Virus record (IMG/VR): IMGVR_UViG_3300025128_004292
Span: 1-23,178 of that record
Direction: 5' to 3' (one strand)
From: a virus
DNA: 23,178 nucleotides
In this document: piece by piece, positions 2 to 19,582 of the stretch
Layout of the letters: every line of letters starts with the position of its first letter
Position numbering within the stretch: position 1 is the stretch's first letter
The notes under the pieces: model-generated
Seen by the model: the letters and a program-made list of their open reading frames with translations, nothing else
Told to the model about the DNA's origin: nothing
The model's database searches: none
Made by a program: the position numbers and the translations under genes

Positions 2-3000
2 ATTGATCCTGCTAATGGGGAAGCTTTTAAAGAATATCTTGAGTCGGCTGTTGGGGGTGGTGTTGCTGGTTTTGTCTTTGGTGCTTTTGGTGGAGGTGGT
101 CGAGGTGTGCGCCGATATAGCCAACAGACTTCACTAGAAGAACAACAAAATGAAATAGATCGTGCTATTGCTGAAGGAAGCTTTCTTATTGATTCCCTTG
201 AAGAGGGTGGGGTAGCTCCTGCACCTGTACAAGTAGCTCCTACTCTGGAAGAATCAGCTACGGCAGCAACAAGTCCTATAGGAGAAGTTGAAACCGATGT
301 AGAAGTAGACGGGACTTCTCCGACGCTTGCCGATGCTAAATATCTAGAATGGAAACAAGAAAAAGATAAGGGTTCATTGCTTGATCTCCCTGAACCTAAA
401 CCTAAACCTAAACGTAAAGTTAAAGGTAAAACTACACCTGAAGTTAAGCCTGAAGAAACTAAAGGTAAACTAGGAACTACATTAGAACTAAATAAAAAAG
501 GTTTACCTAAAGAAGGGCAATCAAAAATAGGACCACTAACAGGAACAGCAACAAGACCAAAAATGACTGCTCGTTCTGCTGCAGAAATAGCAGAGTTAAA
601 TAAAAAAGGAAGGAAACAAGCAGCAAAGGACAAAGCACAAGCAGTAGCTTTAAGTGGAGGAGCTAGTGAAGAAGTAGTTAATCAAACTACTGCTACTATT
701 GAAGAGACTGATGCACCAGTAGATTCATTTGGTGGTCCCGATGTTAGTCAATCTGAAATAGCACGAGCAGAAGTAAAACAAAAACTAGATGAAGGGATTG
801 TAAAACAAGATCAAGGACAAACTCTTGATAGTGATGAAGAAAATCTTTTAAAAGAAGCCAATAAAAAAGCTGAAGAAGCTGCAAAGATTAAAGGAGAAAT
901 AAGAGAATTAAGAAAAGCTTTTCGTGAAGGAAACCTTACCGAAAAACAAGCAGATCGTGCGGTAGGGTTAGGTCTAAACGTACCTATAGATGACGATGGA
1001 AATATTGTATACCCTACTCAAAAACAAATAGAGGCTGCTAAGAAGAAACAAAAAAGAACTGCTCAAAGAAAAGACTTTGAAGGTGCAATAGAAGAAGGGC
1101 AAGTAGATTCTGAAGTAGTTACAGGGCTTACAGGAACTGAAGCAGATGTTACGGCTGAAACTGATAGAGAGGGTGATCCTTCTATTACATTAGCCGAAGC
1201 TTTAAAACCTACTTATCGTCAGACAATGGCAGAGATGGACAAGGATGATCTTGTTGAATTGTCTGAGGCAGAACAGGAAAAGGTTAGAGAATTTATAAGT
1301 GAGAAGCTTGGAGCTAGTGTTGATACTATCTTTATGGAACAAGCAAGTATTGCTGCAGAGTATGAAAAAGCAGGGGGTACAAATCCTAGTGACGTACTTG
1401 CTTTTACTGATCCTATTAAACGTATTATCTACGTAGCTACTAATCCTTCTTCTCTTACGGATGTAGAGTCTATGGTAGGTGAAGAAGTCTACCATATGGC
1501 TGAAGGATTAAATCTCTTTACTGAAGCTGAACGTAAAGCATTGCAAGATACTCTCACAGTAGAGACGGCAAGAGAGAATGGTCTTGGCCCAATGATAGAT
1601 GCTTACCCCGAAGCCCTACACGCAATGGAGGCTCGTGCTAAGTTAGCTGGTCTATGGTTGTCAGGTGCATCTGTTAAAGGATTACCTACCCGTACTCGTA
1701 GTCTCTTACAACGCTTTAAAGATTTTCTAAGACAGGTTGCTAACTTTATTACAAACAAAGAACCGACTGCAGTTGAGATACAGCGCAGGGCTTTACGAAG
1801 ATTGCAGGATGGTCAACTAGCTAGAGAGATAGGAGGACAACCTTCTGTTGATCTGTCAGGAGTTATGGCGAACAGGGGTATCTTCAAATCTCTTTCTAAT
1901 AAACGAGTTGTAGATGCTGCTAAAAAATCTTTAGCTGACATTAAAAAATCTCGACTAAAGAATGAGACAGGGGAAGTGTTGTCTACGTGGAATAACTGGA
2001 TGACGCATCTTTCCGGCTTGGCTGAAAAGTTTCCAAAGTTTAAACCATTCTACAATGCGTTGATGGATCAAACCCAAAAACGTAATGCTATTAAAAACGA
2101 AGCTTTAACTATTCTTAGACCTTATCTTGAAATGGTTAGCGCAGGTATACCTTTTACAAAGAAAGCCGAAGCAGCAAAGAAAGCGGCAAAAGATATAGAA
2201 CAGTTTGCAATTGCTGCCGATCATCTTCAAGTACCTAAAAGTGTAATTCTTAATGGTGGTAAATTTAAAGAGGACAGGAAAGGAGCAGTAGAAGAAGTAC
2301 TTCCTCCTTTTACTGTTCCTCTTCAAGCATTAAGAGAACGAGGGGGATCAACATGGGAAGCATTAGATGTTCCCGACACCCAAGAATACCTTACACTTGA
2401 TGAGGCATATAGAGAATCTTATCGTGCATCTTCAGATACATTTACTTATGTTTATAATCAAGTTCGGGAAGCTATGGAAAAATACTTAGCGGATCTTGGG
2501 CATACTTTCTTAAATAAAGCTGACTTTAAAGAAGAAACAGATCCGTTAGAAAGATCCAAAAAGATTATAAACTTTTTAAAACCATATCTTGAATTAAATA
2601 AAGAAGGTAAGGTAATACCTTTTGATAAACGAACAAAGAAAGCACTAACAAAAGAAGTGGCTGAAGCAGAGGGTTTGTTTAGAGAAGGAGACAAGGCTAA
2701 AAACGTACAGAAACTTTACGAAGAATTAGGAACTATCTACGATGTAATGGTATCGTTACGTGATGCTCAAGTATTTAGTTATCTACCCCGCATTAGAAAT
2801 GGTGAGTATGTTGTACAAGTTAAACGTATAAATAGAAAAAGTAAAAAAGGAAAAAAACTACCTGATGTAGTTGAAGAACTTATCTCTGTTCCCAATAGTG
2901 CGTTTAGTAAGTTTGGTTTTAGAGCTAAGAGTGCAGTAGCAGAAGATAAACTAGCAAGTCAAATTGAATCAGAAGCAAAAGAAATGTATCCTGATTCTGA

Positions 3001-5215
3001 TAAATATGAAATTAGTAGCTTTAGGTTAACCCGTAACGAGGTTTTAAAAGAAGGTAACCATTCTTTACGTGCAGCCCTTCCTATGATTGAAAGAGTAATG
3101 ATAGCTTTGGGAACAACCGAAGCTCCGTATAGTGGTATGGAACGAGATAAAGATAGTGCGGAAGCCTTTAAAAAAGTAACAGGAAAAGATAAAGCTTTTG
3201 CTGAAAGGGTTATGAAAGATTTAAAAACTGCACTGGGTATGAGGGACTTTGAAAGGTTCACTACTGTTCGGAAACGCCCTACTGTTCAAGGGTATTATAC
3301 TACAAGAAATAACAATGGTACTTATCTTAGTTCGGCCCTTGATCGTTATATAAACAGTGGTGCTAACCAAGCCTCAAGCATTTACTATCAAAATGATTTG
3401 CATACAGCACTTAACAATCTAGATAAACCTGATAGCAGGGATTTATATAGATACGCTAAAGACAGTTGGGAATATTTCAATACCTTTAAAGCAGGTCAAG
3501 AAGCTTTAAGAGCTTTTGCGTTTCATGCTTTTCTTGGTTTTAATATTTCATCTTCTGTTCTTAACCTATTACAAATTCCACAGTCAGCATGGCCTCAAAT
3601 GTCTTCTACCTATGGGGTTGGAGCAACCAGTAGAGAACTGGGTATTGCTTTAAAAGATGCAATAAAAATGGGTAAGCTGAAAGGCAGTCTAGGAAGATAC
3701 GGTTTTGATTTTACTGGAGAGAAACCTAAAGGAATAGCGCAAGCTGATTGGGATATTTTAGTTGACCTTAACAAACGAGGCATCATTCAACCTATTCAAA
3801 ACATAGATTTACAAGGTGAATATAATCAGGATAGTGGTTTAATAAACAGACTTGGTGTTCCTAATCAATTAATGTTCGCTTCTTCATACGCCTTTGGTTA
3901 CACAGAAAATGTTAACAGGGTTACCACAGCTTTAGCTGCCTCTCGTCTTGCACGGAAAGCTTCAACCAATAAGAAGATTGCTAAGAAAGTAAAACTCTTT
4001 GCTTCTCAAACAAGATTTAGTGAAAGGATGAATGAGCTTGTTAAAGATGATGGGACTATAGAAAATCAAAAAGAGTTTGAAAAGTTAGCATCTGAAATGT
4101 TTGTAGAGAAAACCCAGTTTATGATGGGTAAGGAAAATCGTGCAGGGGTTATGCGTAACTTGTTTGGTATGGGATCAGGAATGGGAGGAGTAGCTACTCA
4201 GTTTATGAGTTATCCTATGCAGATGATGAACCTCTACGCACAAGCTTTACGACGTTCTTTAGGAAGAGATGTTGATATTGAAACAAGGAAGATGGCAGCA
4301 GTACAGTTAGCACTGATGTCATTAGGGTTCTTTGCATTTGCTGGAGCTATGGGTCTTCCCTTTGCAGATGATAGTAAGGAAGTAATAAAACTTATCTCTC
4401 GTAACTTTGGAGATCAAGTAGAGTTTGATGTTGGGAAGTATGCCTACGATCTTGTGAAAGATCTTACTAGTGATGAAGCAGCAGAGCTTATAATGTACGG
4501 TCCTATTTCTCGTTCTCTTAATATGGATCTGTCACGCAGGGCAGGTATGGGAAGTCTTATTCCTTTCCTTAGATTAATGTCTGGTACAACGGCCCCTCAA
4601 ATAATGACAGGCCCAGCAGGTACACGCATCATTGACCATGTAGAAGATACACTCCTTACAATTAATGATCCTCTTGTATCCTTGCCTATGAAGATAGCAG
4701 CACCGCTTAGTCTTGCTGTGCCTGTTTCTTTACAACGATTATATAACGGTTTGGTAAAAGTTCCATCACAAGGCTTTATTAGTAAGAAAGGTCAAAGGGG
4801 TGTCTTAGGACCAAATGAAATAGACATAGGAGACAGGTTAACTCATCTTATAGGGTTTACTCCACGCAATCTTGCAAACGAATGGAGAGAAAGAGGAATA
4901 CATAATTACCTTAATTTTCGTAATAGAGGTGGCAAAGAAACGATGACCACAGCTTTAGCGTCTTTAATGACAAGAGTAGTTAGGGCTGAAAATGCTGTAG
5001 AAAGAGCCAGATTACGACAACAATTTAATGAGCTAATGATGCAGGTTCAGGAACATGACTTAGCAGCTATGAACCGTGGTGATGCCTCAGCCATGTATCT
5101 AATTAACATGGACACAATACGAGATAGAGTAAGAGCAAATCTTAATCCGCGAGCAGGTATGCTTAGAAGAACACGAAAAGCTTTAAGAGGAGAGCAAGCA
5201 GAAGAATTTCGTTGA
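2..5215 (+). CDS. Large polyvalent / internal-virion-like protein, 5'-truncated by the window edge
   Basis: The reading frame is open from base 2, so the gene very probably starts upstream. A GTG at 107 would give 1702 residues, but the codons before it encode a Gly/Ala-rich segment that reads as coding. The N-terminal third is Lys/Glu/Pro-rich and low complexity. Counting from GTG 107, residues about 435-480 resemble the metallopeptidase-like part of phage polyvalent proteins, but the expected HExxH reads EEVYH (459-463). The C-terminal half has hydrophobic stretches, including one near bases 4306-4365, and a Phe/Met/Pro-rich segment near 4195-4245 reminiscent of large polyvalent-associated domains. 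Such proteins are usually packaged in the capsid and ejected with the DNA; that role is inferred from size, composition and position before glycosylation and lysis genes. It could instead be a tail or peptidoglycan-acting protein, although I see no lysozyme motif. Confidence 0.75.
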   Translation: MDPANGEAFKEYLESAVGGGVAGFVFGAFGGGGRGVRRYSQQTSLEEQQNEIDRAIAEGSFLIDSLEEGGVAPAPVQVAPTLEESATAATSPIGEVETDVEVDGTSPTLADAKYLEWKQEKDKGSLLDLPEPKPKPKRKVKGKTTPEVKPEETKGKLGTTLELNKKGLPKEGQSKIGPLTGTATRPKMTARSAAEIAELNKKGRKQAAKDKAQAVALSGGASEEVVNQTTATIEETDAPVDSFGGPDVSQSEIARAEVKQKLDEGIVKQDQGQTLDSDEENLLKEANKKAEEAAKIKGEIRELRKAFREGNLTEKQADRAVGLGLNVPIDDDGNIVYPTQKQIEAAKKKQKRTAQRKDFEGAIEEGQVDSEVVTGLTGTEADVTAETDREGDPSITLAEALKPTYRQTMAEMDKDDLVELSEAEQEKVREFISEKLGASVDTIFMEQASIAAEYEKAGGTNPSDVLAFTDPIKRIIYVATNPSSLTDVESMVGEEVYHMAEGLNLFTEAERKALQDTLTVETARENGLGPMIDAYPEALHAMEARAKLAGLWLSGASVKGLPTRTRSLLQRFKDFLRQVANFITNKEPTAVEIQRRALRRLQDGQLAREIGGQPSVDLSGVMANRGIFKSLSNKRVVDAAKKSLADIKKSRLKNETGEVLSTWNNWMTHLSGLAEKFPKFKPFYNALMDQTQKRNAIKNEALTILRPYLEMVSAGIPFTKKAEAAKKAAKDIEQFAIAADHLQVPKSVILNGGKFKEDRKGAVEEVLPPFTVPLQALRERGGSTWEALDVPDTQEYLTLDEAYRESYRASSDTFTYVYNQVREAMEKYLADLGHTFLNKADFKEETDPLERSKKIINFLKPYLELNKEGKVIPFDKRTKKALTKEVAEAEGLFREGDKAKNVQKLYEELGTIYDVMVSLRDAQVFSYLPRIRNGEYVVQVKRINRKSKKGKKLPDVVEELISVPNSAFSKFGFRAKSAVAEDKLASQIESEAKEMYPDSDKYEISSFRLTRNEVLKEGNHSLRAALPMIERVMIALGTTEAPYSGMERDKDSAEAFKKVTGKDKAFAERVMKDLKTALGMRDFERFTTVRKRPTVQGYYTTRNNNGTYLSSALDRYINSGANQASSIYYQNDLHTALNNLDKPDSRDLYRYAKDSWEYFNTFKAGQEALRAFAFHAFLGFNISSSVLNLLQIPQSAWPQMSSTYGVGATSRELGIALKDAIKMGKLKGSLGRYGFDFTGEKPKGIAQADWDILVDLNKRGIIQPIQNIDLQGEYNQDSGLINRLGVPNQLMFASSYAFGYTENVNRVTTALAASRLARKASTNKKIAKKVKLFASQTRFSERMNELVKDDGTIENQKEFEKLASEMFVEKTQFMMGKENRAGVMRNLFGMGSGMGGVATQFMSYPMQMMNLYAQALRRSLGRDVDIETRKMAAVQLALMSLGFFAFAGAMGLPFADDSKEVIKLISRNFGDQVEFDVGKYAYDLVKDLTSDEAAELIMYGPISRSLNMDLSRRAGMGSLIPFLRLMSGTTAPQIMTGPAGTRIIDHVEDTLLTINDPLVSLPMKIAAPLSLAVPVSLQRLYNGLVKVPSQGFISKKGQRGVLGPNEIDIGDRLTHLIGFTPRNLANEWRERGIHNYLNFRNRGGKETMTTALASLMTRVVRAENAVERARLRQQFNELMMQVQEHDLAAMNRGDASAMYLINMDTIRDRVRANLNPRAGMLRRTRKALRGEQAEEFR
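395..430 (+). repeat. Six-unit hexanucleotide repeat (NNTAAA) coding for X-Lys dipeptides
   Basis: Six consecutive in-frame hexamers share the form NNTAAA: three exact CCTAAA copies, then CGTAAA, GTTAAA and GGTAAA. They encode Pro-Lys three times, then Arg-Lys, Val-Lys and Gly-Lys. This looks like slippage expansion followed by drift in the disordered N-terminal part of the large virion-type protein. Confidence 0.8.
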
Positions 5216-5246: not shown

Positions 5247-5996
5247 ATGTCCAATACCATGCACATATTTGTAGGATATGACTCACGGGAAAGCGATGCT
5301 TACGATGTGTGTCTTAAGTCAATCAAACTGAACAATGCAGCCAATGTTTTTGTTCATCCTCTTAATCATTTAGAACTACGTAAACAAGGTCTTTTTAAAA
5401 GACGCTGGCTTGTTAATGAGGAAGGCCAGTATATTGATCTGGAAGATAACCTCCCCTTTTCTACAGAGTTTTCTCACTCTCGTTTTCTTACACCTATCAT
5501 TGCAAAACAGATGGGCATAGAAGGTTGGGTGTTGTTCTGTGATTGTGACTTTTTGTTTCTAAAAAGTGTAAGCTCTCTATGGGATGAGGTGAGTAATGAT
5601 AACAAAGCTGCTATTAAATGCGTTCAATTTGAAGAACAAAATCCTAAAGAAGGTCAGAAGAAGATGGATGGAATGGTACAATCCCCTTACTATCGAAAGC
5701 TCTGGTCTTCTTTTGTTATGTGGAATGTATCTCATCCATCAAATGATAAGCTCACTTTAGAGATGGTTAACACTGAGAAGGGTGGTAACCTGCATAAGTT
5801 TCAGTGGTTAAAAGATGAAGAGATAGGTAGCATAAATCCTATATGGAACTATATACCTACCGTCACTAGTCCCTACATAATACCAGCCGCTATTCATTTT
5901 TCAGAAGGTGGTCCGTGGTTTAAAGACTACAAGGACACAGAGTACGCTGATAATTGGCGTAAGTATTTTAAACAAACGATAGATAAATATGACTGA
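5247..5996 (+). CDS. GT8-like glycosyltransferase (GT-A fold, DCD motif)
   Basis: Predicted sugar transferase of 249 residues using a nucleotide-sugar donor. The N-terminus (HIFVGYDSRE) resembles the nucleotide-binding start of GT8-like enzymes. A D-C-D motif at 99-101, after a hydrophobic strand, is the likely metal-binding DxD. Near the C-terminus a His followed by Gly-Gly-Pro-Trp (AIHFSEGGPW) matches the second metal/diphosphate ligand region of GT8-type enzymes. There is no signal peptide or membrane segment, so it should act in the cytoplasm. ATG 5247 is chosen; a TTG lies at 5244 and another in-frame ATG at 5259, and a weak AGTAGG precedes. The last 8 bases overlap the next gene (ATGACTGA), implying translational coupling. 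Acceptor and donor are unknown; a virion protein, host surface glycan or modified base are all possible. Confidence 0.75.
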   Translation: MSNTMHIFVGYDSRESDAYDVCLKSIKLNNAANVFVHPLNHLELRKQGLFKRRWLVNEEGQYIDLEDNLPFSTEFSHSRFLTPIIAKQMGIEGWVLFCDCDFLFLKSVSSLWDEVSNDNKAAIKCVQFEEQNPKEGQKKMDGMVQSPYYRKLWSSFVMWNVSHPSNDKLTLEMVNTEKGGNLHKFQWLKDEEIGSINPIWNYIPTVTSPYIIPAAIHFSEGGPWFKDYKDTEYADNWRKYFKQTIDKYD

Positions 5997-8268
5997 CAAA
6001 GATAAAAAAGTTTTAGTAGTTTCTTCTTTCAATACATCCTCATGGGATCGTTACTCCAAAGAGTTTTTAGATACGTTACTAGACAACTGGAAGGATGTGG
6101 ATGTCGCTATCTATTATGACGGTGCGTCTAACGACATGCTCACTCCCTACAAAGATCGTTTAGATTATGTATTTAATTTAGATGAGAATGAGAACCTGCA
6201 GTTCTTTAAAAAGAATAACAAGGAGCGCAACGGTAAAGAAGATAATGGTGCTTACAACTATAGACAAGATGCTCTTAAGTTTTCTAATAAAGCTTTTGCT
6301 ATCATGGATGCTTATCTTGAAAAGGATTTTAAAAAGAAGTATGAGTGGATCGTTTGGATTGATGCAGATACTGTTACTAAGAAAGAGTTTCCTAAAGAAG
6401 AGTTATTAAAAATACTAGGTAACTGTGACGTAGCCCACTTAGGCAGGACTGCTATTGACTATAGCGAGACAGGTTTTGTTGGTCTTAACTTACAGAGTGT
6501 AAAGACATGGGATCTGATCATAGACTTTGAAGCATGTTATCTTTCTAATGAAATTTTTGGATATCGTGAGTGGACTGATGCGTTTGTCTTTACTCGCCTT
6601 ATTAACTTACATAGCTTGCATGGGCTAATTCTTAACAATCTAAGCTTTGGATGTGAAGACTTAGATGCGTTTGAAGCTTCTCCTTTAATTGAATATCTCT
6701 ATCATAAAAAAGGTAATCGTAAAGATGATCCTAAGATTGACAGTATTAAAATACCAAAAGCATTGGGACGCTACTCTGCGCTTGTAGGTTTAATAAAAGA
6801 GTACAAGAGTAAAAATATATTAGAGGTTGGTACATGGAACGGTGACCGTGCTATCCAGATGGCTATCACAGCTTTAAAGGAATCAAATAAAGTACACTAC
6901 ACTGGGTTTGATTTATTTGAAGAAGCAACTGATGCGACTGATCAAGAAGAGTTTAATGTTAAAAAACATTTCTCTGAAAAAGATGTCAACGAAAAGCTAA
7001 CAGCTTTTGCTAATAGCGTTAACGAAGCAGATGATGAAAAGCAATTTACTTTCTGTCTTATCAAAGGGAACACTCGACAAACTTTAAAAATTGTTTCCAA
7101 CACTGATGCGTGTAACAGTAAAAACATTAAGCCTGACTTTGCTTTTATAGATGGGGGTCACAGTCTTAAAACTATTGAGCATGACTACAATAAGTTAGCT
7201 CACGTTCCTATCGTTGTCTTTGATGACTACTACAGGCCGGATGAAGAGGGCAAGATACCTGATATAAAAAAGGTAGGGTGCAATATTTTATTTGAAGAGC
7301 TTGATGTAAAAGATTCTAAAAAGTTTTTAATAAGTTCTGATGATCATGTTGCTGATGGCGGCTGTGTAGGGTTTGGTGTAATAATACATGACCCAAAGAT
7401 TGATCTTCCTACCTTCTCCTCTGTACAGGCTAAGACACCTATAAAGGTTTTACCTAAAGATTGTATGCCTAATGAATACATACAAAATAATATTGAGATT
7501 AACACACCTAAGTTCACTAAGTGGTTAGATAAAAAAGGTAGTGTAAATAACGAAACGGTTTTCGTTGTGTCTGCTGGTCCTTCTCTTGAGAAGAATATAG
7601 CGAAACTTAAAGCTGAAAAAAGAAAGCATCCTCGCGCTAAAATCTTATGTGTTAAACATGCTCTTCCTATTCTTATAGAGAATGGTATTTTTCCGTGGGG
7701 TTGTATTGTTCTTGATCCTCGCCCTGTCGATGGTGTTAGTACACATGGGGTTGTGCGTAAAGATCTGTTTAAAAAGATTCCTAAACGCACTAACTTCTTT
7801 ATAGCTTCTATGTCTGACCCCACTATCGTAGATTTGCTTATAGAAAAAAGTAGTAATACTTATGGATGGCATGCTTACTCTAATGCTATTGATGACTATG
7901 AACCACTTAAAAATAAGATGTTAATTACAGGTGGTACTTGTGCAGCTATGCGTACACTAGGGTTAATGTATACGCTAGGGTTTAGATCTTTTAAACTCTT
8001 TGGCTTTGACTGTTCTTTAGAAGGTGAACCCGAAGATCAAAAAGATGCACAGCTATTTCAGGTAGGTATCGGAGATGAGAAGAAGGGTGGTCTTCACTGG
8101 ACTACAGGTGAGCTTCTTGCAATGGCTCAAGATTTTGAGCAGATGATTAACCGTCCTGATATAGATATGAATATAGAGGTGTATGGTGGTGGTCTTGTGC
8201 AGTCTATTTGGGAAGATGGTAAAGATAAATTTATGAGGCTTTCGTACAAGGAGATATTAGATGGATGA
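5989..8268 (+). CDS. Three-domain protein: glycosyltransferase-like, class I methyltransferase and MptE/DUF115-like
   Basis: A 759-residue protein in which I recognise three units. Residues about 5-230 resemble a GT-A glycosyltransferase, with a D-A-D-T motif at 125-128 after a hydrophobic strand (WIVWI). Residues about 255-425 resemble a class I SAM methyltransferase of the Methyltransf_24 kind: motif I EVGTWNGD at 279-286, an FIDGGH segment at 386-391 and a following VVFDDYY. Residues about 520-755 match the MptE-like/DUF115 family associated with flagellin-type glycosylation: VSAGPSLE at 527-534, TGGTCAAM at 647-654 and LFGFDC at 670-675. It overlaps the preceding glycosyltransferase gene by 8 bases and the next gene by 8, so it is co-translated with both. 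The likely job is building a methylated or otherwise decorated glycan; the target is unknown. Domain boundaries are estimates. Confidence 0.8.
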   Translation: MTDKDKKVLVVSSFNTSSWDRYSKEFLDTLLDNWKDVDVAIYYDGASNDMLTPYKDRLDYVFNLDENENLQFFKKNNKERNGKEDNGAYNYRQDALKFSNKAFAIMDAYLEKDFKKKYEWIVWIDADTVTKKEFPKEELLKILGNCDVAHLGRTAIDYSETGFVGLNLQSVKTWDLIIDFEACYLSNEIFGYREWTDAFVFTRLINLHSLHGLILNNLSFGCEDLDAFEASPLIEYLYHKKGNRKDDPKIDSIKIPKALGRYSALVGLIKEYKSKNILEVGTWNGDRAIQMAITALKESNKVHYTGFDLFEEATDATDQEEFNVKKHFSEKDVNEKLTAFANSVNEADDEKQFTFCLIKGNTRQTLKIVSNTDACNSKNIKPDFAFIDGGHSLKTIEHDYNKLAHVPIVVFDDYYRPDEEGKIPDIKKVGCNILFEELDVKDSKKFLISSDDHVADGGCVGFGVIIHDPKIDLPTFSSVQAKTPIKVLPKDCMPNEYIQNNIEINTPKFTKWLDKKGSVNNETVFVVSAGPSLEKNIAKLKAEKRKHPRAKILCVKHALPILIENGIFPWGCIVLDPRPVDGVSTHGVVRKDLFKKIPKRTNFFIASMSDPTIVDLLIEKSSNTYGWHAYSNAIDDYEPLKNKMLITGGTCAAMRTLGLMYTLGFRSFKLFGFDCSLEGEPEDQKDAQLFQVGIGDEKKGGLHWTTGELLAMAQDFEQMINRPDIDMNIEVYGGGLVQSIWEDGKDKFMRLSYKEILDG

Positions 8269-8590
8269 CACTGAAAATATTCTTGGATTTCCTAATAGTA
8301 AAATTGTAAGAAACTCTGATCAAGTTCGCCAAAGTAAAGGAGGCCATGAAGTAAACAAAGAATTTGTTAACGAGGCTTTGTTTACAGTTACTGAACATAT
8401 AAATAGTGTAGAGAATCTTAAGGGAGTAGTGATACTTGCTTTTGAAGAAGGCACCGATAAAACAATTCCTATATGCAGAGAATGGTTTGCCGGAGAGTTG
8501 TCTGTATCCGAAGTATATATTATGTTAGATAGGATAAAAAACGATCTACTCAATACGTTAGAAGATAAAGATCCAACAGGAGAACGATGA
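8261..8590 (+). CDS. Small protein of unknown function (109 aa)
   Basis: I do not recognise this protein. It is soluble, slightly acidic and has no membrane segment. The N-terminal 30 residues look unstructured and polar; residues about 32-100 read as a compact helix/strand mix (EALFTVTEHI, GVVILAFEEG, WFAGELSVSEVYIMLDRI). The start is well supported: AAGGAG at 8248-8253 lies 7 bases before the ATG, inside the end of the previous gene. The gene overlaps its upstream neighbour by 8 bases and its stop overlaps the holin start (ATGA). Its position between glycosylation and lysis genes is compatible with a small late-region accessory protein, but nothing in the sequence shows a function. Confidence 0.8.
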   Translation: MDDTENILGFPNSKIVRNSDQVRQSKGGHEVNKEFVNEALFTVTEHINSVENLKGVVILAFEEGTDKTIPICREWFAGELSVSEVYIMLDRIKNDLLNTLEDKDPTGER

Positions 8591-9611: not shown

Positions 9612-9977
9612 ATGGAAATTGAAGGTAAAGTATGGGGAACAACCCGCCCCCTTATTGTTAATCCAATTATAGAAGTACACAGGATTACAGTAGAGCAAGA
9701 TGCCTATTGTTCTAAGCACCAACATCAATCAAAGATAAATGCTTTCTATGTCGAATCAGGAGAACTTCTTATTCGTAGATGGAAGAATGATTACGATCTG
9801 GTAGATGAAACTAATTTACTACAGGGTCAGATTTGTATCGTACCTGCTGGAGAAGTTCACCAGTTTAAAGGAATAACTCCTACAACCTTTGCTTTAGAGT
9901 TTTATTGGAGCCAACTAGATGCTAAAGACATAATTAGAGCAAATGTAGGGGGAGTTACAGAAAAAGTAGGGACATAG
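9612..9977 (+). CDS. Single-domain cupin
   Basis: A 121-residue protein with a cupin (double-stranded beta-helix) pattern: H36-x-H38 in motif 1, a Gly turn at 50, then motif 2 with PAGEVH and H83. This resembles sugar-phosphate isomerase or sugar-nucleotide cupins. The usual Glu between the HxH pair and the Gly is absent (Lys41 or Asn43, depending on the alignment), so metal binding may be weaker or altered. The ATG is 2 bases after the previous stop. It is the last gene of the plus-strand arm and faces, across the convergent junction, a minus-strand gene that also has a C-terminal cupin with the complete ligand set. A role in sugar metabolism is plausible from this context and from the glycosyltransferases upstream, but the substrate is unknown. 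Confidence 0.75.
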   Translation: MEIEGKVWGTTRPLIVNPIIEVHRITVEQDAYCSKHQHQSKINAFYVESGELLIRRWKNDYDLVDETNLLQGQICIVPAGEVHQFKGITPTTFALEFYWSQLDAKDIIRANVGGVTEKVGT

Positions 9978-10263: not shown

Positions 10264-11028
10264 CTAATCTCCGCAATCTATGGCAAAACGAATGATGTCT
10301 TCTTCTTCTACCTTCTCCCCATATTGAACCTCAACTAAGGTACAGGGTTCTTTATAATTATTTTTTACTTGGTGTACTTCGTTCTTATTAATAACGACAC
10401 TATCATGCAGATTTAATATACGAGCAGCAGGAAAGAGTAAGTCTGCTTTACCTTCTACAACAATCCAGTATTCGCTTCTATGTCTATGAGCTTGTAAACT
10501 AATACCCTTCTCAGGAAGAAGGTGAAGAGTTTTAACTTTATACCCAGTACCTTTATCTAGTACTCTGTAGTGACCCCACGATTTTTCAGTTATATCTTCA
10601 TCCCATTTCTGTAGAATAGTAGAGGAAGAGTTTTGTTTAGAACCGCCTACGTTAAACTCAAATTTAATACCTGCGTCAGTGGCAAAGCGATCTAGTTCAG
10701 GGATGTTCTGATCAGTGCGGTCACCCCCATTAGCAAAGACAATAAAAGCATTAGGATAAAAGTGTCTAACTTTTACAATAGCAGCTATTGCAGAATCATC
10801 TTCATCATCAAAGCTAATAACATTGTCCACAGCTTTTAAGTTAAGTAAGACTTGTTCCCTTTCGTAGTAAGGTAAAAATGATTTACCTTTCTTACGTCTG
10901 AGCCAATCATCTGAATTTAGACCTACAATTAATACGTCGCCTAATGTTTTAGCACACTTAAAATATTCTAAGTGTCCAGAATGTAGTGGATCAAAACCAC
11001 CTGTAACAATTACAATTTGCTGTTTCAT
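10264..11028 (-). CDS. Nucleotidyltransferase-cupin fusion (RfaE2/cytidylyltransferase-like + mannose-6-P isomerase-type cupin)
   Basis: A 254-residue two-domain enzyme. Residues 1-145 form a cytidylyltransferase-like domain: TGGFDPLHSGH (9-19) with the HxGH nucleotide-binding motif, GLNSD (36-40), ANGGDR (99-104) and SSSTIL (134-139). This pattern is closest to heptose-1-phosphate adenylyltransferase (RfaE2/HldE C-terminal) and related enzymes that join a nucleotide to a sugar or alcohol phosphate. Residues about 150-250 form a type II cupin like the C-terminal part of GDP-mannose pyrophosphorylase/mannose-6-P isomerase, with ligands H181, H183, E186 and H219 all present. The start is ATG 11028, whose A is shared with the nrdB stop (TGATG), so translation is coupled. 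It probably makes or conditions an activated sugar; the exact substrate cannot be read from the sequence. Confidence 0.8.
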   Translation of the reverse strand: MKQQIVIVTGGFDPLHSGHLEYFKCAKTLGDVLIVGLNSDDWLRRKKGKSFLPYYEREQVLLNLKAVDNVISFDDEDDSAIAAIVKVRHFYPNAFIVFANGGDRTDQNIPELDRFATDAGIKFEFNVGGSKQNSSSTILQKWDEDITEKSWGHYRVLDKGTGYKVKTLHLLPEKGISLQAHRHRSEYWIVVEGKADLLFPAARILNLHDSVVINKNEVHQVKNNYKEPCTLVEVQYGEKVEEEDIIRFAIDCGD

Positions 11029-11999
11029 CACGCCCACACTTCTGACCAGCTACCACTAAGCGCACCCTTGGCGTAATCAGTAGAGTGGTTCTCAAAGAAG
11101 TTAGTATGGGTAGGTGCATTAATCATAGTCTCTACCCAAGGTAGGGGGTTAGTCTTAACTTTAAAGATCCCCTTCATGCCCATAGAGATAAGCCTACGAT
11201 CTGCAATGTAGCGGATGTACTCTTTTACTTCAGTATCCCGTAGTCCTTCAACCTTACCCATCTTGAATGATAGATCAACAAACTTATCTTCAAGAGCAAC
11301 CATAGTTTCCGCTATGCTATAGATAGCTGACTTGGTTTCATCGTTCCACTCTTCCATGTTCTCTTCAATATAAGTTCTAAATAATTTAATCATACCTTCT
11401 GCGTGTTGTGTCTCATCTACGATAGACCATGTAACAATCTGCCCCATGCCTTTCATCTTACCGTGGCGTGGAAAGTTAAGCAGCATGATAAAGCTAGAGA
11501 ACAATGCCAGCCCTTCAGTGAAAGCAGAGATAGCTGCAATCTTAATAGGTAGTGAAATCTTTTTATTATTCACACTAGACAGAAAGTACTCATGCTTCTC
11601 ACGCATAGCGTCGTACTCTAAGAACTCATTGTAAGTGGAGTCAGGCATACCTAAAGATTCTATCAAGTGTGAGTACGCTGCAATGTGTAACGCTTCCCTA
11701 GCCGCAAAGCCTGAGAGCATCATGCGTACTTCAGGTTGTGGGAAGTTGGGAAGGTAGTTATCTATATACCCACCAGCTACATCAATGTCAGACTGTGTAA
11801 AGAACCTGAAGATATTAGTAAGAAAGTACTTCTCCTCTGTGGAGAGGTTGTTCTTCCAATCCTTGATGTCTTCAATCATAGGTACTTCAGTATGTAGCCA
11901 GTGAGATTGCTCATGCTTTAACCATAGGTCATAAGCCCAAGGGTAGTGAAAGGGCTTAAAGTAATTACGCTTATCCTGTAGTTTTAACTTATCCGTCAT
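11028..11999 (-). CDS. nrdB: Class I ribonucleotide reductase, small (beta) subunit
   Basis: Radical-generating subunit that works with NrdA to reduce ribonucleotides for phage DNA synthesis. Conserved ligands are in order: E38, E102-x-x-H105, E162, and E196-x-x-H199 for the di-metal site, with Tyr109 at the position of the stable radical tyrosine (E-x-x-H-x-x-x-Y). At 323 residues it is slightly shorter than bacterial NrdB. The start is ATG 11999: GAGGAG lies 9 bases upstream and homology begins right after it. A longer in-frame opening to 12107 would add 36 residues with no NrdB character, and that DNA is better explained by a small gene in another frame. The last bases overlap the next gene's start (TGATG). 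NrdA lies upstream, separated by two unrelated genes. Confidence 0.93.
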   Translation of the reverse strand: MTDKLKLQDKRNYFKPFHYPWAYDLWLKHEQSHWLHTEVPMIEDIKDWKNNLSTEEKYFLTNIFRFFTQSDIDVAGGYIDNYLPNFPQPEVRMMLSGFAAREALHIAAYSHLIESLGMPDSTYNEFLEYDAMREKHEYFLSSVNNKKISLPIKIAAISAFTEGLALFSSFIMLLNFPRHGKMKGMGQIVTWSIVDETQHAEGMIKLFRTYIEENMEEWNDETKSAIYSIAETMVALEDKFVDLSFKMGKVEGLRDTEVKEYIRYIADRRLISMGMKGIFKVKTNPLPWVETMINAPTHTNFFENHSTDYAKGALSGSWSEVWA

Positions 12000-12148: not shown

Positions 12149-12724
12149 TTACAAGGAATCTTTTAACCTTTGTAACAATAGTTCTTCATCTCTGATTGTC
12201 TTAAAAACAATGACTGATCTCAACTCATGGCACATACGAGATACTGGCATTGCCTGATGTTTGGTATCTGCGTGAAATACTAATAATCTATTACCAATGT
12301 AATTACAATATTTATGAATATTTTTTTCTTCCTTATCCCATAAAGCTGTCCCACCTAACCAATGAGGTTTCCAATCAAGACGAGGGTAATATATAAAAGT
12401 ATAATCCCCATCATCTGTATGTATATATGGTTCGACTCCAAAAGTATGGGCATTCATATAAACTCGTTTTAATTTTACAGGAACATGAAATTTATTTTTA
12501 GCTGCTTCAAGAAGAGGTAATAAATATTCATAATTATATGTTATTAAATCATCTTCACTACCTGCAATACGTATACCAAAATGAGGATATATTGTATCAC
12601 CATATATTTTTTTATTACTTTTTCTAATTGAATGTTTATTATATTCCCATGATAAATTTCTAACTCTATCATGTACATCTTCAGCAACACTGTCTCGTAG
12701 TAGATTATCATATACCCAAAACAT
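12149..12724 (-). CDS. 2OG-Fe(II) dioxygenase, prolyl-4-hydroxylase-like
   Basis: A predicted 191-residue Fe(II)/2-oxoglutarate oxygenase. The facial triad is visible: H102-x-D104 (IHTDDGDY) and a distal H156, with R169 in HELRSVIVF as the likely 2-oxoglutarate anchor. Supporting features are the YTFIYY strand and GGTALWD turn after the first ligands, and the FHADTKHQAMPVS segment around the distal His. ATG 12724 is preferred to GTG 12739 because GAGG lies 9 bases upstream, and the ATG falls 4 bases after the nrdA stop. It sits between nrdA and nrdB but is far more AT-rich than either (about 30% GC by hand count over 12181-12720). That composition suggests later acquisition. The substrate is unknown; phage homologues could hydroxylate protein, nucleic acid or small molecules. 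Confidence 0.85.
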   Translation of the reverse strand: MFWVYDNLLRDSVAEDVHDRVRNLSWEYNKHSIRKSNKKIYGDTIYPHFGIRIAGSEDDLITYNYEYLLPLLEAAKNKFHVPVKLKRVYMNAHTFGVEPYIHTDDGDYTFIYYPRLDWKPHWLGGTALWDKEEKNIHKYCNYIGNRLLVFHADTKHQAMPVSRMCHELRSVIVFKTIRDEELLLQRLKDSL

Positions 12725-12728
12725 ATCG

Positions 12729-14528
12729 TTAACCCTCACACGCTAGACAGTCTTCACCAATCACTAAAGACTCTATGTTAATCTCTTTAATAATCTGTCT
12801 CTCAATCTTACGACTAACCTTATCAGCTTTACCAATCTTTTCAGAACGACAGTAGTACATAGTCTTAACGCCCTTCTTCCATGCCATGAAGTGTACAGCA
12901 TGAAGGTACTTAATATCTACGTCTGGCCTAAAGAATACATTAAGGGATTGAGATTGGTCTATAGCTTTCTGTCTATCAGAAGCATGTTCTATTACCCACC
13001 GTTGATCTATCTCCATAGCGGTCTTAAACAATTCTTTCTCTTCAGCATCAAGACACCTTAGATGTTGCACTGATCCATCATTAGCTATGATTGAAGACCA
13101 GATACGATCATAGTTAAGCTTACTATCTTTATCACATTTTTCTAGAAGAAGTTTGTCTAAGAATTTATTCTTGTTTAGAAACGAACCACTAAGAGTATCT
13201 TGACGATAGGCGTTGGCTCTCCAAGGTTCAATTGATGGTGATGTATTACCCATGATAATTGAACTGCTGGCATTAGGCGCGATTGCCATAACGTGACTAC
13301 ATCTGAGTCCTGTTCCTGCTGCATCTGGAGCTTCGCCTCGTATCTTTCCCAAGTACTTATTGGCTTCGTTAAGTTTAATTCTAACGCTTTTAAAGATGTT
13401 ATTGTTGACGAGCTTGGCGACAAGATGATCAAAGGGGATCTTGCTTTTTTGGAGGTAGGCGTGGAAACCCAAGGCTCCAACTCCGACTGAGCGTTCACGC
13501 ATGGCACTGTACCTAGCGCGACTGATAGTATCAGGAGCATTGTCAATAAAGTTCTGGAGCACATTGTCCAGCATTTCCAATGTGTCCTGTAAAAATAGCG
13601 GGTCATTTTTCCACTCATCATAGTATTCTAGATTAAGTGAACTCAAACAGCAAACCGCAGTACGCTCTGAGTTAGTGGGAAGAATAATTTCTGAGCACAG
13701 ATTAGATTGGTTTATTTCTAATCCTTTTTCCTTAAGCCAAAAAGGTAACCGATCATTAGAGGTATCTATAAAATGTATATAAGGCTCACCTGTCTGCATA
13801 CGCATCTCTAGTATACGTTGCCATAGTTCTTTAGCACTTACTGTTTCTTTAACCTGCTTAGTGTGGGGATCTATTAGCTCCCAACTGTCATCATCTTCAG
13901 GGTTTGTCATACAGTTTTCTACAAGCTGCATAAACTTATCTGAGATATTAATACCATGATGCAAGTTAAGGCACCTAAAGTTTTGGTCACCTGTAGGTTT
14001 ACGCATCTCTAAGAATAATAAAATATCAGGGTGATCAATATTGAGGTAGGCTGCATAGCTACCTCTACGAGTTTTGCCCTGCCTGTACGCAAGGCTAGAC
14101 GCATCATACATCTTAAGGTGTGGCATCATGCCTGTAGACTTATCGTCTGCTGAACGAATACCAAAGCCTATGCCGACACCACCACCATACATAGACAACC
14201 AGTTAGTCTCTGATAGATTATCTACTAAACCTTCTGCGGTGTCTTCAATGTAATTAAGATAACAGGAGATAGGAAGACCCCGCTTAGAACGTCCGTAAGA
14301 TAAGACAGGGGTGGAATAAGATAGCCAATGCTTAGAGGAATACTCATACAATCTCTGAGCGTGTTCGCTGTTTGAAGAGAATGTTTTAGATACAAAAGCA
14401 AATCTTTCCTGTGGGGAAAGCTCACTGTCCAACATGTAAGATTCTTTAAGACGAGCAATCCCTAGCTCATCAAAAAGATTATCCCTACTTGGGTTAATAG
14501 TAATGCCATGATGACTTATCTGAGACAT
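12729..14528 (-). CDS. nrdA: Class I ribonucleotide reductase, large (alpha) subunit, no ATP cone
   Basis: Catalytic subunit that reduces ribonucleoside diphosphates, partner of the NrdB encoded downstream. Catalytic residues are all present: C89 (in the segment after STPVLS) and C293 (AVCCLSSLNL) as the redox pair, N276-x-C278-x-E280 (NLCSE) as the active-site triad, Y558-Y559 for the radical path and C594-x-x-C597 in the C-terminal shuttle tail. At 599 residues it is much shorter than the 761-residue E. coli enzyme, and the N-terminal ATP-cone domain is missing. It would therefore escape dATP shut-down, a common phage adaptation. The start is ATG 14528 with AAGGAG 9 bases upstream. A 69-base gap separates it from the preceding gene, one of the longer gaps in this operon. 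Confidence 0.93.
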   Translation of the reverse strand: MSQISHHGITINPSRDNLFDELGIARLKESYMLDSELSPQERFAFVSKTFSSNSEHAQRLYEYSSKHWLSYSTPVLSYGRSKRGLPISCYLNYIEDTAEGLVDNLSETNWLSMYGGGVGIGFGIRSADDKSTGMMPHLKMYDASSLAYRQGKTRRGSYAAYLNIDHPDILLFLEMRKPTGDQNFRCLNLHHGINISDKFMQLVENCMTNPEDDDSWELIDPHTKQVKETVSAKELWQRILEMRMQTGEPYIHFIDTSNDRLPFWLKEKGLEINQSNLCSEIILPTNSERTAVCCLSSLNLEYYDEWKNDPLFLQDTLEMLDNVLQNFIDNAPDTISRARYSAMRERSVGVGALGFHAYLQKSKIPFDHLVAKLVNNNIFKSVRIKLNEANKYLGKIRGEAPDAAGTGLRCSHVMAIAPNASSSIIMGNTSPSIEPWRANAYRQDTLSGSFLNKNKFLDKLLLEKCDKDSKLNYDRIWSSIIANDGSVQHLRCLDAEEKELFKTAMEIDQRWVIEHASDRQKAIDQSQSLNVFFRPDVDIKYLHAVHFMAWKKGVKTMYYCRSEKIGKADKVSRKIERQIIKEINIESLVIGEDCLACEG

Positions 14529-15944: not shown

Positions 15945-16788
15945 CAACTCTTGGCTCCTGTCTAACCTCTGTCAAATACTTAATACCGTTAGAGTACTTA
16001 AACCCTCTTAATCCTTTACCGTTGTTCGCATCCTGCCAACAATTAAGTTTAAAGTTACAGTACTGACACCCTACAGCTAACTTCATGTTACCACTCTTAC
16101 CATCTGGTACAGCCTCATAACACTTAGGCGGTGGCTCACTAGCCTCTAAGGATGTTTTTAAATTAGTAATCCTATCCTCTACGTTAATCATTTCCATACC
16201 GTGTACAGGCATTACCGCTATCTCTCCAGACTGTTTATCAATAACAATGAACGCAGCCTTATCTACTTTGTTAGCGTAAGCATATGCTGATAGCTGTCCT
16301 ATGTAACCAAAGGGATCATTCTCAAAAAGAGTTTGATCTTTAAATTTCTTAAAACTAAATCCAGAAGCAGACTTAAAGTCCACCACCACATCATCTACTC
16401 TCGCATCTTGATGGCCCTTAACTCCCAATATGTTATGTTCTTTCTGTTGGTCTGTAACGCTATGACCTGCTGTCTTACAGATAAGAACTAGTAGCTCTTC
16501 TAAAATAGAACCATAAAGGAATTTAATTAATAAAGAATACGGTAGGTCTTCTACCTCATCATCAGTGCGATTAATTTCATACCATAACTGTCTATCAGGT
16601 TTCCCTATATTAGACATACGAAGCTTGTCTCTTTTCTCATCTAAAGAATTGTTGCGAGAAAACGTAGAGGTGACCGCCTCTCTTACGTTATCCAAAAATA
16701 TTTGGAGATCAGCTTCTGAGGGTTCAACAGTGGAGCGACTGCTGAACAGGGATTCAATATCAGAAATAAGATCATGTAAGTTTGGCAT
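15928..16788 (-). CDS. Cas4/RecB-like PD-(D/E)XK exonuclease, possible Fe-S cluster
   Basis: A 286-residue nuclease in the place where T7-like phages often carry a 5' exonuclease. Motifs in order: E98-E99 (GSILEELL), G-H-Q-D-A-R with D128, VVVDFKS with D137-x-K139, and GYIGQLSAYAY with Q165; together these are the RecB/Cas4 nuclease core. Near the C-terminus C241-x-x-C244 and C250 (GCQYCNFKLNCW), with C104 or C223 as the fourth ligand, resemble the iron-sulfur cluster of Cas4/AddB-type nucleases. It probably degrades host DNA and makes ends for recombination with the neighbouring SSB and resolvase. GAGG lies 6 bases before ATG 16788. A 63-base gap with a strong stem-loop precedes it. No CRISPR array or cas genes are present, so a CRISPR role is not supported. 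Confidence 0.85.
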   Translation of the reverse strand: MPNLHDLISDIESLFSSRSTVEPSEADLQIFLDNVREAVTSTFSRNNSLDEKRDKLRMSNIGKPDRQLWYEINRTDDEVEDLPYSLLIKFLYGSILEELLVLICKTAGHSVTDQQKEHNILGVKGHQDARVDDVVVDFKSASGFSFKKFKDQTLFENDPFGYIGQLSAYAYANKVDKAAFIVIDKQSGEIAVMPVHGMEMINVEDRITNLKTSLEASEPPPKCYEAVPDGKSGNMKLAVGCQYCNFKLNCWQDANNGKGLRGFKYSNGIKYLTEVRQEPRVDEVFL

Positions 16789-16802
16789 TGGTCACCTCTA
16801 CT

Positions 16803-16839
16803 AGCTGGCAAGGTGAAAGGAGCAAATTCCTCACCAGCT
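16803..16839 (-). other. Stem-loop between the SSB and exonuclease genes
   Basis: AGCTGG (16803-16808) and CCAGCT (16834-16839) form a six-base outer stem. On the minus-strand transcript the inner TGA/TCA and GGA/TCC segments can extend it with a bulge. It ends about 15 bases before the exonuclease start and after the SSB stop. There is no U run, so a processing or translation-control role is more likely than termination. Confidence 0.45.
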
Positions 16840-16851
16840 TATCACTTTACT

Positions 16852-17325
16852 TTACTCAAACGGTATCGAATCTTCTGATACATATCCGTCATCGACAGAT
16901 TGAAAATCCGAACCTGTTGAGTCAGCCCCACCTTCATAAGGAACTAACTCAACGACTTGAACACCTACTAATTCAAAGCCGTTCTTCCCTGCAACAGGGC
17001 CACGCTTGTACTCAAATGTTCTGAATGATGCGTTAACTTTAGAACCATTACCTACATTGGTTCCTGACATATCATTCATCTTACTATCAATGAGACGAGG
17101 TTTAGATTGTTCCTGTGCTTTAGGTCCAATCTGATTACGTTTTAACGTGACATAATCTCCACGGTCATCGTCTGCATTTTTAATAGACATCTTCTGTGAC
17201 TTTGCAATCTTAAGATTATCTTCATCAAGATTACATACATCAATTGACCACTGCTTCTTCTCAGGGTCAAAGTTATTAGAAGGCACTTCAAGCTTTGCCC
17301 ACTTAGCTGTTCCAGAAATAATCAT
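16852..17325 (-). CDS. Phage single-stranded DNA-binding protein
   Basis: A 157-residue protein resembling phage SSBs of the T7 gp2.5/DUF2815 kind: an OB-fold-like run of strands (GTAKWAKLEVPSN, KQWSIDVCNL, residues 80-120 with FRTFEYK) followed by VGVQVVELVPY. The last 27 residues are strongly acidic and end with an aromatic (EDSIPFE). This is the tail that in T7 gp2.5 and bacterial SSBs recruits the polymerase and primase-helicase. It should coat single strands at the replication fork and stimulate annealing. The ATG overlaps the stop of a mini reading frame by ATGA and has only a weak purine-rich site, AGGAAA 12 bases back, so coupling may matter. Nucleases on both sides fit a replication/recombination role. 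Exact family assignment is tentative. Confidence 0.8.
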   Translation of the reverse strand: MIISGTAKWAKLEVPSNNFDPEKKQWSIDVCNLDEDNLKIAKSQKMSIKNADDDRGDYVTLKRNQIGPKAQEQSKPRLIDSKMNDMSGTNVGNGSKVNASFRTFEYKRGPVAGKNGFELVGVQVVELVPYEGGADSTGSDFQSVDDGYVSEDSIPFE

Positions 17326-17917: not shown

Positions 17918-19582
17918 CTAATGGGTTTCCTTCCATGATGTACCAATCTTAGCTTCACTATCAAGTGGGCATTTTACATTAAGAACTTTTTCAGTAATCT
18001 TCATAGCTTCTTTTGTCAAGGAAGAAAATTTTCCAGCGTCCAGAATACTCACTTCAAATTGTACTTCATCGTGTATGTTAGCAACAGGGTGAGCGTTGAG
18101 CTTATGTTTTTCTGTGAGCTTACATATCTCTATCAACCACTGCTTACATATAATACTGCCAGCCCCTTGTAACAGTGTATTAAGGGCAGCGTGTTGGTGT
18201 CGTATGATTATCTGTCTACCATCAAGACCTATAATGTAGCCGTGATCTGTAGCTTGTTTAGTAATTCTTTCACGTAAGGTTGCAAGCTTGGGCAGGTTCT
18301 TAAGAAATCTTTTAATAAGTTTCTGTCCCTCTCTTGCACCACCATTAACAATCGAACCTATCTTTGCAGGGCCAGCCCCATAAAGAAAAGCATAGATGAA
18401 AGTCTTGGCTTGATCACGATCTGTTAAACCGGCTGCTCTCATGTTAGCTGTGTGTATGTCACCGCTTAAGACTTCGTTAGTAAAATCTTTATCGTTCATG
18501 TAGTGGGCAAGACAACGTAGTTCTAATCCAGAAGCATCAGCCCCTACAAGTTTGTATTTCTTTTTGTCTTCAATGCACCATAGCTCTCGACACTCCTTGC
18601 CATAAGGAGAATAAGAAGCAGGTACTTGGGCCATGTTGGGACTGTTGTGGCTCATGCGTCCCGTGATAGTTCCGATAGTTCTGACCTTGCCATGCACTCG
18701 ATTTGTAGCTGGGTCCATTGCTTCAATCCATGACTTAACCTGTGCTAACCTCTTATTAACTAAGAATAATTCTTGAAAATCTTTAGCTATAGGAACGTCA
18801 CATTCTTGAAGAGTCTTTTCATTTATGATTGGTAGATTGGTCTTCGCTGTAAACTGTGATGGCTTCCAACCCAACGCTAATAATTTCTCACCAATCTGCT
18901 GCCGACTGTTAGGATTAAACGGTTCGTACTTAGTCTTCGTTACCAGCTTTATTTCTTTCGGTGGAAACATATTAATTAATTTATTAGAGATGTCCGTAGA
19001 TTTTTCTTGGAGCGTAGCAAGAAGACTTGATGCCTTCATCTCATTAAAATAGAAACCATTTTTAATTTGTATGTTAATGAGATGAGCAACTAAATGTTCC
19101 ATCTCTATAGAGAACTTTGAGAACCCCTCAAGATCTTTTACAAGCTGAAGATATAGCTCGTGGGTTACATCTACATCTCTGATGCAATACTTAATCATCT
19201 TATTACTTAGACCAGAGAAGTCCTCAAAAAATATTTTAGGGTAGGATAGTTGTTCTCCCCACGCCGCAAGGCTATGCCCCTCTTCCCGTACAGGATTAGC
19301 TAACCTTGAATAGACAAGGGTATCAATAATTTTACTAATAGGTATCTCAATCTTTAGTAAATCGTAGAGGACAGGGACATCAAAGCCTATGCCGTTGTGC
19401 ATAATAATTTTATCATACTTACTTAGAAACTCTCCACACTCGTCAAGATTCTGATAAGTATCTGTAGTGTCGCATGTAAAGACAGTGATGAAGTGTGAAT
19501 CAATATCTTTACACGCAACTACAAATATCTTATCGGGATTGAACCCGTTAGTTTCTATGTCGAGAACAAGTTTCTTAGTCAT
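17918..19582 (-). CDS. Family A DNA polymerase with 3'-5' exonuclease, T7-like
   Basis: Replicative DNA polymerase of 554 residues. The exonuclease domain has D8-x-E10 (DIETNG), D68 (GIGFDVP) and Y132...D136 (YCIRDVD), so proofreading should be active. Polymerase motifs: TGRMSHNSPNMAQ at 307-319, motif A with D349 (DASGLELR), the O-helix R389-x3-K393-x3-Y397 (RDQAKTFIYAFLYG) and motif C H504-D505-E506. The residue at the E. coli Pol I 762 position is Tyr (Y397), as in T7, the form usually found in lytic phages. At 554 residues it is shorter than T7 gp5 (704); I cannot identify a thioredoxin-binding loop. The ATG overlaps the end of the GMD gene by 8 bases and lacks a clear ribosome site, so translation probably depends on coupling. 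Confidence 0.95.
   Translation of the reverse strand: MTKKLVLDIETNGFNPDKIFVVACKDIDSHFITVFTCDTTDTYQNLDECGEFLSKYDKIIMHNGIGFDVPVLYDLLKIEIPISKIIDTLVYSRLANPVREEGHSLAAWGEQLSYPKIFFEDFSGLSNKMIKYCIRDVDVTHELYLQLVKDLEGFSKFSIEMEHLVAHLINIQIKNGFYFNEMKASSLLATLQEKSTDISNKLINMFPPKEIKLVTKTKYEPFNPNSRQQIGEKLLALGWKPSQFTAKTNLPIINEKTLQECDVPIAKDFQELFLVNKRLAQVKSWIEAMDPATNRVHGKVRTIGTITGRMSHNSPNMAQVPASYSPYGKECRELWCIEDKKKYKLVGADASGLELRCLAHYMNDKDFTNEVLSGDIHTANMRAAGLTDRDQAKTFIYAFLYGAGPAKIGSIVNGGAREGQKLIKRFLKNLPKLATLRERITKQATDHGYIIGLDGRQIIIRHQHAALNTLLQGAGSIICKQWLIEICKLTEKHKLNAHPVANIHDEVQFEVSILDAGKFSSLTKEAMKITEKVLNVKCPLDSEAKIGTSWKETH

Follow-up and report, generated by a model that had tools for sequence, protein, structure and literature searches.

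Sets of sugar genes are already known from phages, for example from cyanophage S-SCSM1, a T4-like phage of ∼229 kb with genes for mannose-6-phosphate isomerase (MPI, or PMI below), GDP-mannose 4,6-dehydratase (GMD), fucose synthase and glycosyltransferases (PMC9602691). Enzymes of the Maf family are known to glycosylate a protein, flagellin, by O-linkage ahead of export, and PF01973 is their central domain (PMC11339370, PMC4065374). This domain (Maf_flag10, which is pfam01973) has a Cst-II-like structure, and the enzymes carrying it use nonulosonic acids and 3-deoxy-D-manno-octulosonic acid (KDO) (PMC11339370). Here we describe IMG/VR record IMGVR_UViG_3300025128_004292, analysed over its entire 23,178 bases (the window), in which a gene for a predicted GT8-fold glycosyltransferase is followed by an adjacent gene for a predicted GT-A/methyltransferase/PF01973 fusion protein. 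As in the S-SCSM1-type cyanophage set, a marine phage here carries GMD, a PMI-type cupin and glycosyltransferases; unlike S-SCSM1, the window represents a podovirus, and its set is centred on this pair of genes. The window is a genome fragment, so more sugar or donor genes may lie beyond it. We consider it very probable that these genes form a glycosyltransferase module, and we give about an even chance to the fuller statement that this is a phage glycan-transfer module with a virion protein as its most likely acceptor.

The first gene of the pair (5247–5996, plus strand, with its start at 5247 or further downstream) encodes a protein of PHROG 28018 (E 1e-70) that matched no Pfam family at E 0.1, Glyco_transf_8 included. 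Its AlphaFold2 model is well defined (pLDDT 88, pTM 0.89), and Foldseek matched it to GlyE, LgtC, an Anaerococcus GT8 protein (3tzt), LARGE1 and glycogenin (E ∼1e-9 to 1e-6). The phage protein shares with the GT8 enzymes LgtC, GlyE and glycogenin the GT-A/GT8 fold, the DxD motif (D99-C-D101) and the C-terminal His/Gly/Pro motif (H217...G221-x-P223), both of which are unchanged across 17 homologues, but it is only 10–16% identical to solved GT8 members. Because of the missing Pfam match, the product is best described, from its model, as a predicted GT8-fold enzyme and not as a member of the GT8 family.

The second gene (5989–8268, plus strand) encodes a 759-amino-acid (aa) protein for which Pfam, motifs and model point to three domains: a GT-A-like domain at residues ∼1–250, Methyltransf_24 at ∼260–430 (31 bits, cutoff 26.3) and PF01973 (MptE-like/DUF115/Maf) at ∼498–677 (80.1 bits, cutoff 34.6). 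The DxD motif (D125-A-D127), the methyltransferase motif and a GPS motif are invariant in 8 homologues. In the structure model the N-terminal ∼240 residues look GT-A-like and the middle part looks COMT/TrmR-like, though the model is of low confidence (pLDDT 62), and its Foldseek ranks serve for domain identity only. The PF01973 domain is held in common with the Maf/PseD flagellin glycosyltransferases; however, only this central domain was matched by the PseD model NF050051 (37 bits, cutoff 670), the phage protein carries GT-A and methyltransferase domains ahead of PF01973 on the same chain, and the window has no gene for a nonulosonate synthase. In one relative (G038) the fusion is shorter, at 543 aa, and is without the methyltransferase motif, and therefore the fusion domains are modular. 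The initial annotation had proposed sugar-enzyme folds for these products, and Pfam domains and structure-model matches agree with it (GT8/GT-A, PF01973 and GMD); all five sugar genes that it listed proved to be open.

The window polymerase is 47–49% identical over its full length to those of Pelagibacter phages HTVC103P, HTVC104P and HTVC115P, and the primase, exonuclease and single-stranded DNA-binding protein (SSB) likewise match HTVC103P/HTVC115P-type podoviruses, so that the window is, by sequence, a podovirus fragment with HTVC103P-type pelagiphage replication genes. The GC content of the window (∼38%) would fit group IV of the uncultured HTVC103P relatives, for which 31.9–44.4% is reported (PMC8528129); its capsid and TerL genes lie outside the fragment. 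Plus-strand genes run up to ∼10.0 kb and minus-strand genes cover the remainder, the two arms converging at ∼10.0–10.3 kb, where the GC skew also switches sign. Because the giant virion gene of HTVC103P-type isolates is opposite in strand to the replication genes and converges on them, the plus arm of the window is taken as the late arm and the minus arm as the early arm. A promoter and terminator scan near the pair and the arm junction gave sites no more numerous than in shuffled sequences. The gene 5′ of the pair (2–5215, plus strand) encodes a giant virion-type protein, truncated at the window end, of 1,737 aa or more; its size differs among close relatives and reaches 2,953 aa (L001 340–9201, L032 1144–9957).

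Relatives were sought at the protein level and not by DNA, and protein identity was just ∼40–57%. The 759-aa protein as query retrieved 1 locus and a two-sequence profile 2, and the working set of relatives came from profiles of GT8 and of the polymerase. Wherever the gene after GT8 was readable (∼30 records), it proved to be the fusion gene, mostly at a gap of <210 bases. The sugar genes thus travel together, contrary to the lack of co-occurrence that the initial annotation had named as its refutation, and they do so in unrelated phages as well: the nucleotidyltransferase-cupin gene described below stands beside GT8 in many T4-like phages, and a Caulobacter jumbo phage has PF01973 in the vicinity of GT8. 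The remark that small phages seldom carry such a set is true of isolates and does not hold for uncultured relatives.

In T4-like marine phages (the 155-kb G010 and Mosig EXVC030M), the GT8 protein and the GT-A N-terminal domain both have homologues with a methyltransferase adjoining, and G010 also has the nucleotidyltransferase-cupin and the small cupin, as in the window. Unlike in the window, this glycan cluster consists of separate genes instead of one fusion and lies near uvsX/uvsY. The methyltransferase, GT-A N-domain homologue and GT8 of Mosig EXVC030M are separate adjoining genes and represent a split form of the fusion. In the Caulobacter jumbo phage CcrColossus, the gene for a PF01973 protein (a match over 34 residues with 31.8 bits, below the cutoff of 34.6) is followed two genes later by that for a GT8 homologue, with a tail gene on one side and endolysin/holin genes on the other.

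Members of the clade of the window (G001, G002, G003, G005–G008, G012, L040 and G038) have the pair on the late strand, 3′ of the gene for the giant virion protein. In ∼20 other relatives it is on the early strand, that of the polymerase, 3′ of ribonucleotide reductase and often of an Hsp20-like gene, and in 4 of these GMD comes just after the pair. Late-arm and early-arm copies fall in separate clades of the GT8 tree, with the Caulobacter copy within the late-arm clade; constraining all podovirus GT8 copies to one clade fits worse and is not rejected (p-AU 0.058). This suggests, and does not establish, that the podovirus lineage acquired the pair repeatedly, or twice separately. The initial annotation had read the two arms as early synthesis and late transfer of the sugar, an order that is not conserved, as relatives differ in the place and arm of the pair, of the cupin and of GMD. 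The early/late split in the window is a local arrangement. One 107-kb record (G032, the record of L203) carries two diverged GT8–GTD units, with GT8 at 43560–44261 and 98727–99446, as well as two NrdJ-like genes, and may represent adjacent proviruses or an assembly that fused two phage genomes.

The genes around the pair are more variable. On the minus strand (10264–11037) lies a gene for a predicted fusion of an HxGH-family nucleotidyltransferase and a mannose-6-phosphate-isomerase-type cupin (PF01467 and PF01050, both well above cutoff), with a frame that opens at GTG 11037, a refinement of the ATG at 11028. The initial annotation allowed for an activated deoxy or heptose-type sugar. The nucleotidyltransferase domain scored 75.5 bits against the heptose-1-phosphate adenylyltransferase model TIGR02199 (RfaE2/HldE), below the cutoff of 181.5, and it also matches glycerol-3-phosphate and ethanolamine-phosphate cytidylyltransferases; for these two reasons its substrate is not fixed as heptose. 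The QxHxH...E motif of type II mannose-6-phosphate isomerases reads QAHRHRSE in the window, which retains the second cupin His that is gone in most phage homologues. The type II PMI/GMP enzymes ManC/AlgA likewise end in a PMI cupin (PF01050, 94 bits in the phage protein); in contrast to them, the nucleotidyltransferase half of the phage protein is of the HxGH family (RfaE2/TagD-like) and not an NTP_transferase, and the bifunctional GMP/PMI model TIGR01479 gave 82.6 bits against a cutoff of 373, from the cupin part only.

The same fusion occurs in ∼58 viral loci, most of them with UvsX-, UvsY- or gp32-like neighbours, named by reading the sequences, and hence presumably T4-like. After dereplication at 80% identity into 27 clusters, GT8 was found near the fusion in 16 and adjacent to it in 15, the GT-A N-domain homologue in 12 and the small cupin in 7. 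By comparison, GT8 was present in 0 of 24 loci with the PMI cupin only (Fisher p 2e-6, with a control set that had not been dereplicated and includes short loci). Two protein families with no Pfam match recur in ∼30 of the T4-like loci (L077/G010 13108–13950 and 16114–17130) and probably belong to the same cluster. Outside phages, the fusion stands directly after polA in >30 SAR11 genomes (e.g. L264 5004–5780; Pelagibacteraceae L247–L283), and it is also chromosomal in SAR86 and other gammaproteobacteria, with polysaccharide-type genes around it in L280 and L284. By our own reading of the sequences, a nonulosonate synthase and a CMP-sugar cytidylyltransferase are presumably among the neighbours in these two loci. 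Recent capture from a SAR11 host was considered and rejected, since the SAR11 copies fall outside the phage-rich clade (99/96) in which the tree places the window copy. Divergent copies were also seen in Patescibacteria (Kaiserbacteria, Nomurabacteria and relatives; L300–L325).

The small cupin (9612–9977, plus strand) is a tentative assignment, with Cupin_2 at 25.1 bits, just below the cutoff of 27.2. A 64% identical copy lies between polymerase and primase in G001, the gene is 5′ of primase in L160, L164, L171, L177, L178, L187 and L199, and in L244 it is downstream of the pair.

GMD (19575–20636, minus strand) is complete (PF16363, E 7e-116; TIGR01472, 403 bits with a cutoff of 415, which the L203 homologue exceeds at 464.6), and the catalytic SEMFG and YGTAK motifs of short-chain dehydrogenases/reductases (SDR) are kept in relatives. 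It is present in 8 of the ∼30 pair-bearing records and at four sites: between polymerase and primase in the window, at the early-arm end adjoining holin in G001 and G002, directly downstream of the pair on the early strand in G014, G015, G016 and G026, and between SSB and exonuclease, adjoining a DegT aminotransferase, in G032. GMD and DegT occur together in L001 and L203, the DegT proteins scoring below every specific cutoff. All 8 GMD records bear the pair, and GMD is found in 0 of 6 pair-lacking relatives; the contrast (5/23 pair-bearing versus 0/6, with the window, G001 and G002 counted as extra) is not significant, and the repeated adjacency of GMD and pair is better evidence than this count. 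The initial annotation had GMD supply the precursor of the transferred sugar. Most pair-bearing records are without GMD, including group-2 contigs that run from primase to pair, and GMD is optional relative to the pair.

From the folds, the motifs and the linkage and recurrence of the genes we infer the activity of the enzymes, their sugars and their acceptor as follows. The fixed core would be two probably cytoplasmic enzymes encoded by adjacent genes, the GT8-fold glycosyltransferase and the GT-A/O-methyltransferase/PF01973 fusion, which together would assemble a short oligosaccharide, probably methylated, and attach it. The GT8 enzyme and the GT-A domain would add sugars, the methyltransferase domain would methylate, and the PF01973 domain may add a further, possibly CMP-activated sugar, or may join the glycan to protein as Maf does. 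Exchangeable donor genes would surround this core, namely GMD with or without DegT, the nucleotidyltransferase-PMI-cupin or a PMI cupin alone, and the small cupin. GMD with DegT would yield GDP-4-keto-6-deoxymannose or its 4-amino derivative, and where phage supply genes are absent the donor presumably comes from the host pool. KDO synthesis was tried as a general donor route, as KdsA/KdsB lie near GT8 in S-SCSM2R and CTP_transf_3 is present in G010, and was rejected, since KdsB-like proteins were found in only 1 other locus and KdsA-like proteins in 3.

A virion protein, perhaps a tail component, is weakly favoured as acceptor, ahead of the host envelope and with DNA last, and we put its chance somewhat short of even. 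It is favoured because neither export nor membrane domains are seen in the enzymes, because PF01973 is the central domain of the Maf enzymes that O-glycosylate flagellin before export, and because the genes lie between a virion or tail gene and lysis genes, both in this clade and in the Caulobacter jumbo phage. Several observations weigh against this reading of the module. The early-strand pair of ∼20 relatives weakens the argument from position, the T4-like cassette adjoins uvsX/uvsY and not structural genes, and GMD is missing from most pair-bearing records. Moreover, the fusion protein is poorly modelled, the N-terminal DxD and the DUF115 string patterns are missing from some early-arm homologues, and pterin diphosphokinases also belong to PF01973. 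It is possible, although doubtful, that HTVC103P-like podoviruses, T4-like marine phages and Caulobacter jumbo phages share a mobile module of a GT8 enzyme and a Maf-type PF01973/GT-A/methyltransferase enzyme that O-glycosylates and methyl-caps tail proteins, and that exchange of its donor pathways diversifies the phage surface.

The early-strand placement in many relatives would also suit modification of the host envelope, in which the module caps or alters lipopolysaccharide, O-antigen or capsule, for instance with a methylated deoxy- or amino-sugar, and thereby blocks superinfection or changes the surface. The chemistry of GMD with DegT (L001, L203) is that by which O-antigen sugars like perosamine are made, the nucleotidyltransferase-cupin is found in SAR86/gammaproteobacterial polysaccharide-type loci, and cyanophage sugar genes are usually interpreted in this way (PMC9602691). 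However, no flippase, polymerase or acyltransferase of the phage seroconversion-cassette type was present among the scanned window proteins, a late surface change would be of little use to a small lytic phage, and in this clade the pair is on the late arm adjoining lysis genes; we regard envelope modification as a tentative alternative. It is improbable that GMD, the cupins and the nucleotidyltransferase are unlinked auxiliary genes that serve host carbon or nucleotide metabolism, with the transferase pair a separate matter: GMD and the nucleotidyltransferase-cupin are indeed optional relative to the pair, and a role in directing central carbon metabolism has been proposed for the MPI of S-SCSM1 (PMC9602691), but GMD occurred here only in pair-bearing relatives, directly downstream of the pair in 4, and the nucleotidyltransferase-cupin adjoins GT8 in 15 of 27 clusters. 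Glycosylation of modified bases in phage DNA is very improbable, in spite of the DNA glucosylation for which T4-like phages are known and of a 2-oxoglutarate (2OG)-Fe(II) oxygenase gene in the window (12149–12739), as neither a hydroxymethylase nor a C5-methyltransferase turned up among the window proteins scanned, the enzymes that the GT8 fold resembles act on proteins and glycolipids, and a methyltransferase/PF01973 partner is not known from DNA-glycosylation systems.

Other genes were noted near these loci. A small open reading frame (8261–8590, plus strand, 109 aa) lies between the pair and the holin gene, with homologues in the same place in the closest relatives (L001, L032 and G038). 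Some podoviruses have a small methyltransferase gene 3′ of the pair (L197 8945–9640, L244 8104–8790), with a homologue in the T4-like glycan cluster (L077 region of G010). The oxygenase gene named above is on the minus strand between the genes for two ribonucleotide reductase subunits, and its product weakly matches the FlmC family (38.8 bits, cutoff 240) and PHROG 274. The close relative G001 encodes an N6/N4 DNA methylase (L031 3565–4614) between cupin and primase, a gene that the window does not have.

A literature search of partial coverage found no description of the GT8 and GT/methyltransferase/PF01973 pair or of its recurrence over three phage groups. Carriers are in culture, Mosig on Candidatus Pelagibacter ubique HTCC1062 and Ccr phages on Caulobacter CB15, and the question is thus directly testable. 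Should virions prove to be what the module glycosylates, it would give abundant ocean phages a means of altering their surface that is widespread and apparently not described before, and adsorption, host range and resistance would all be affected; it would also constitute a compact glycan system in small phages that ties Maf-type enzymes to phage biology.

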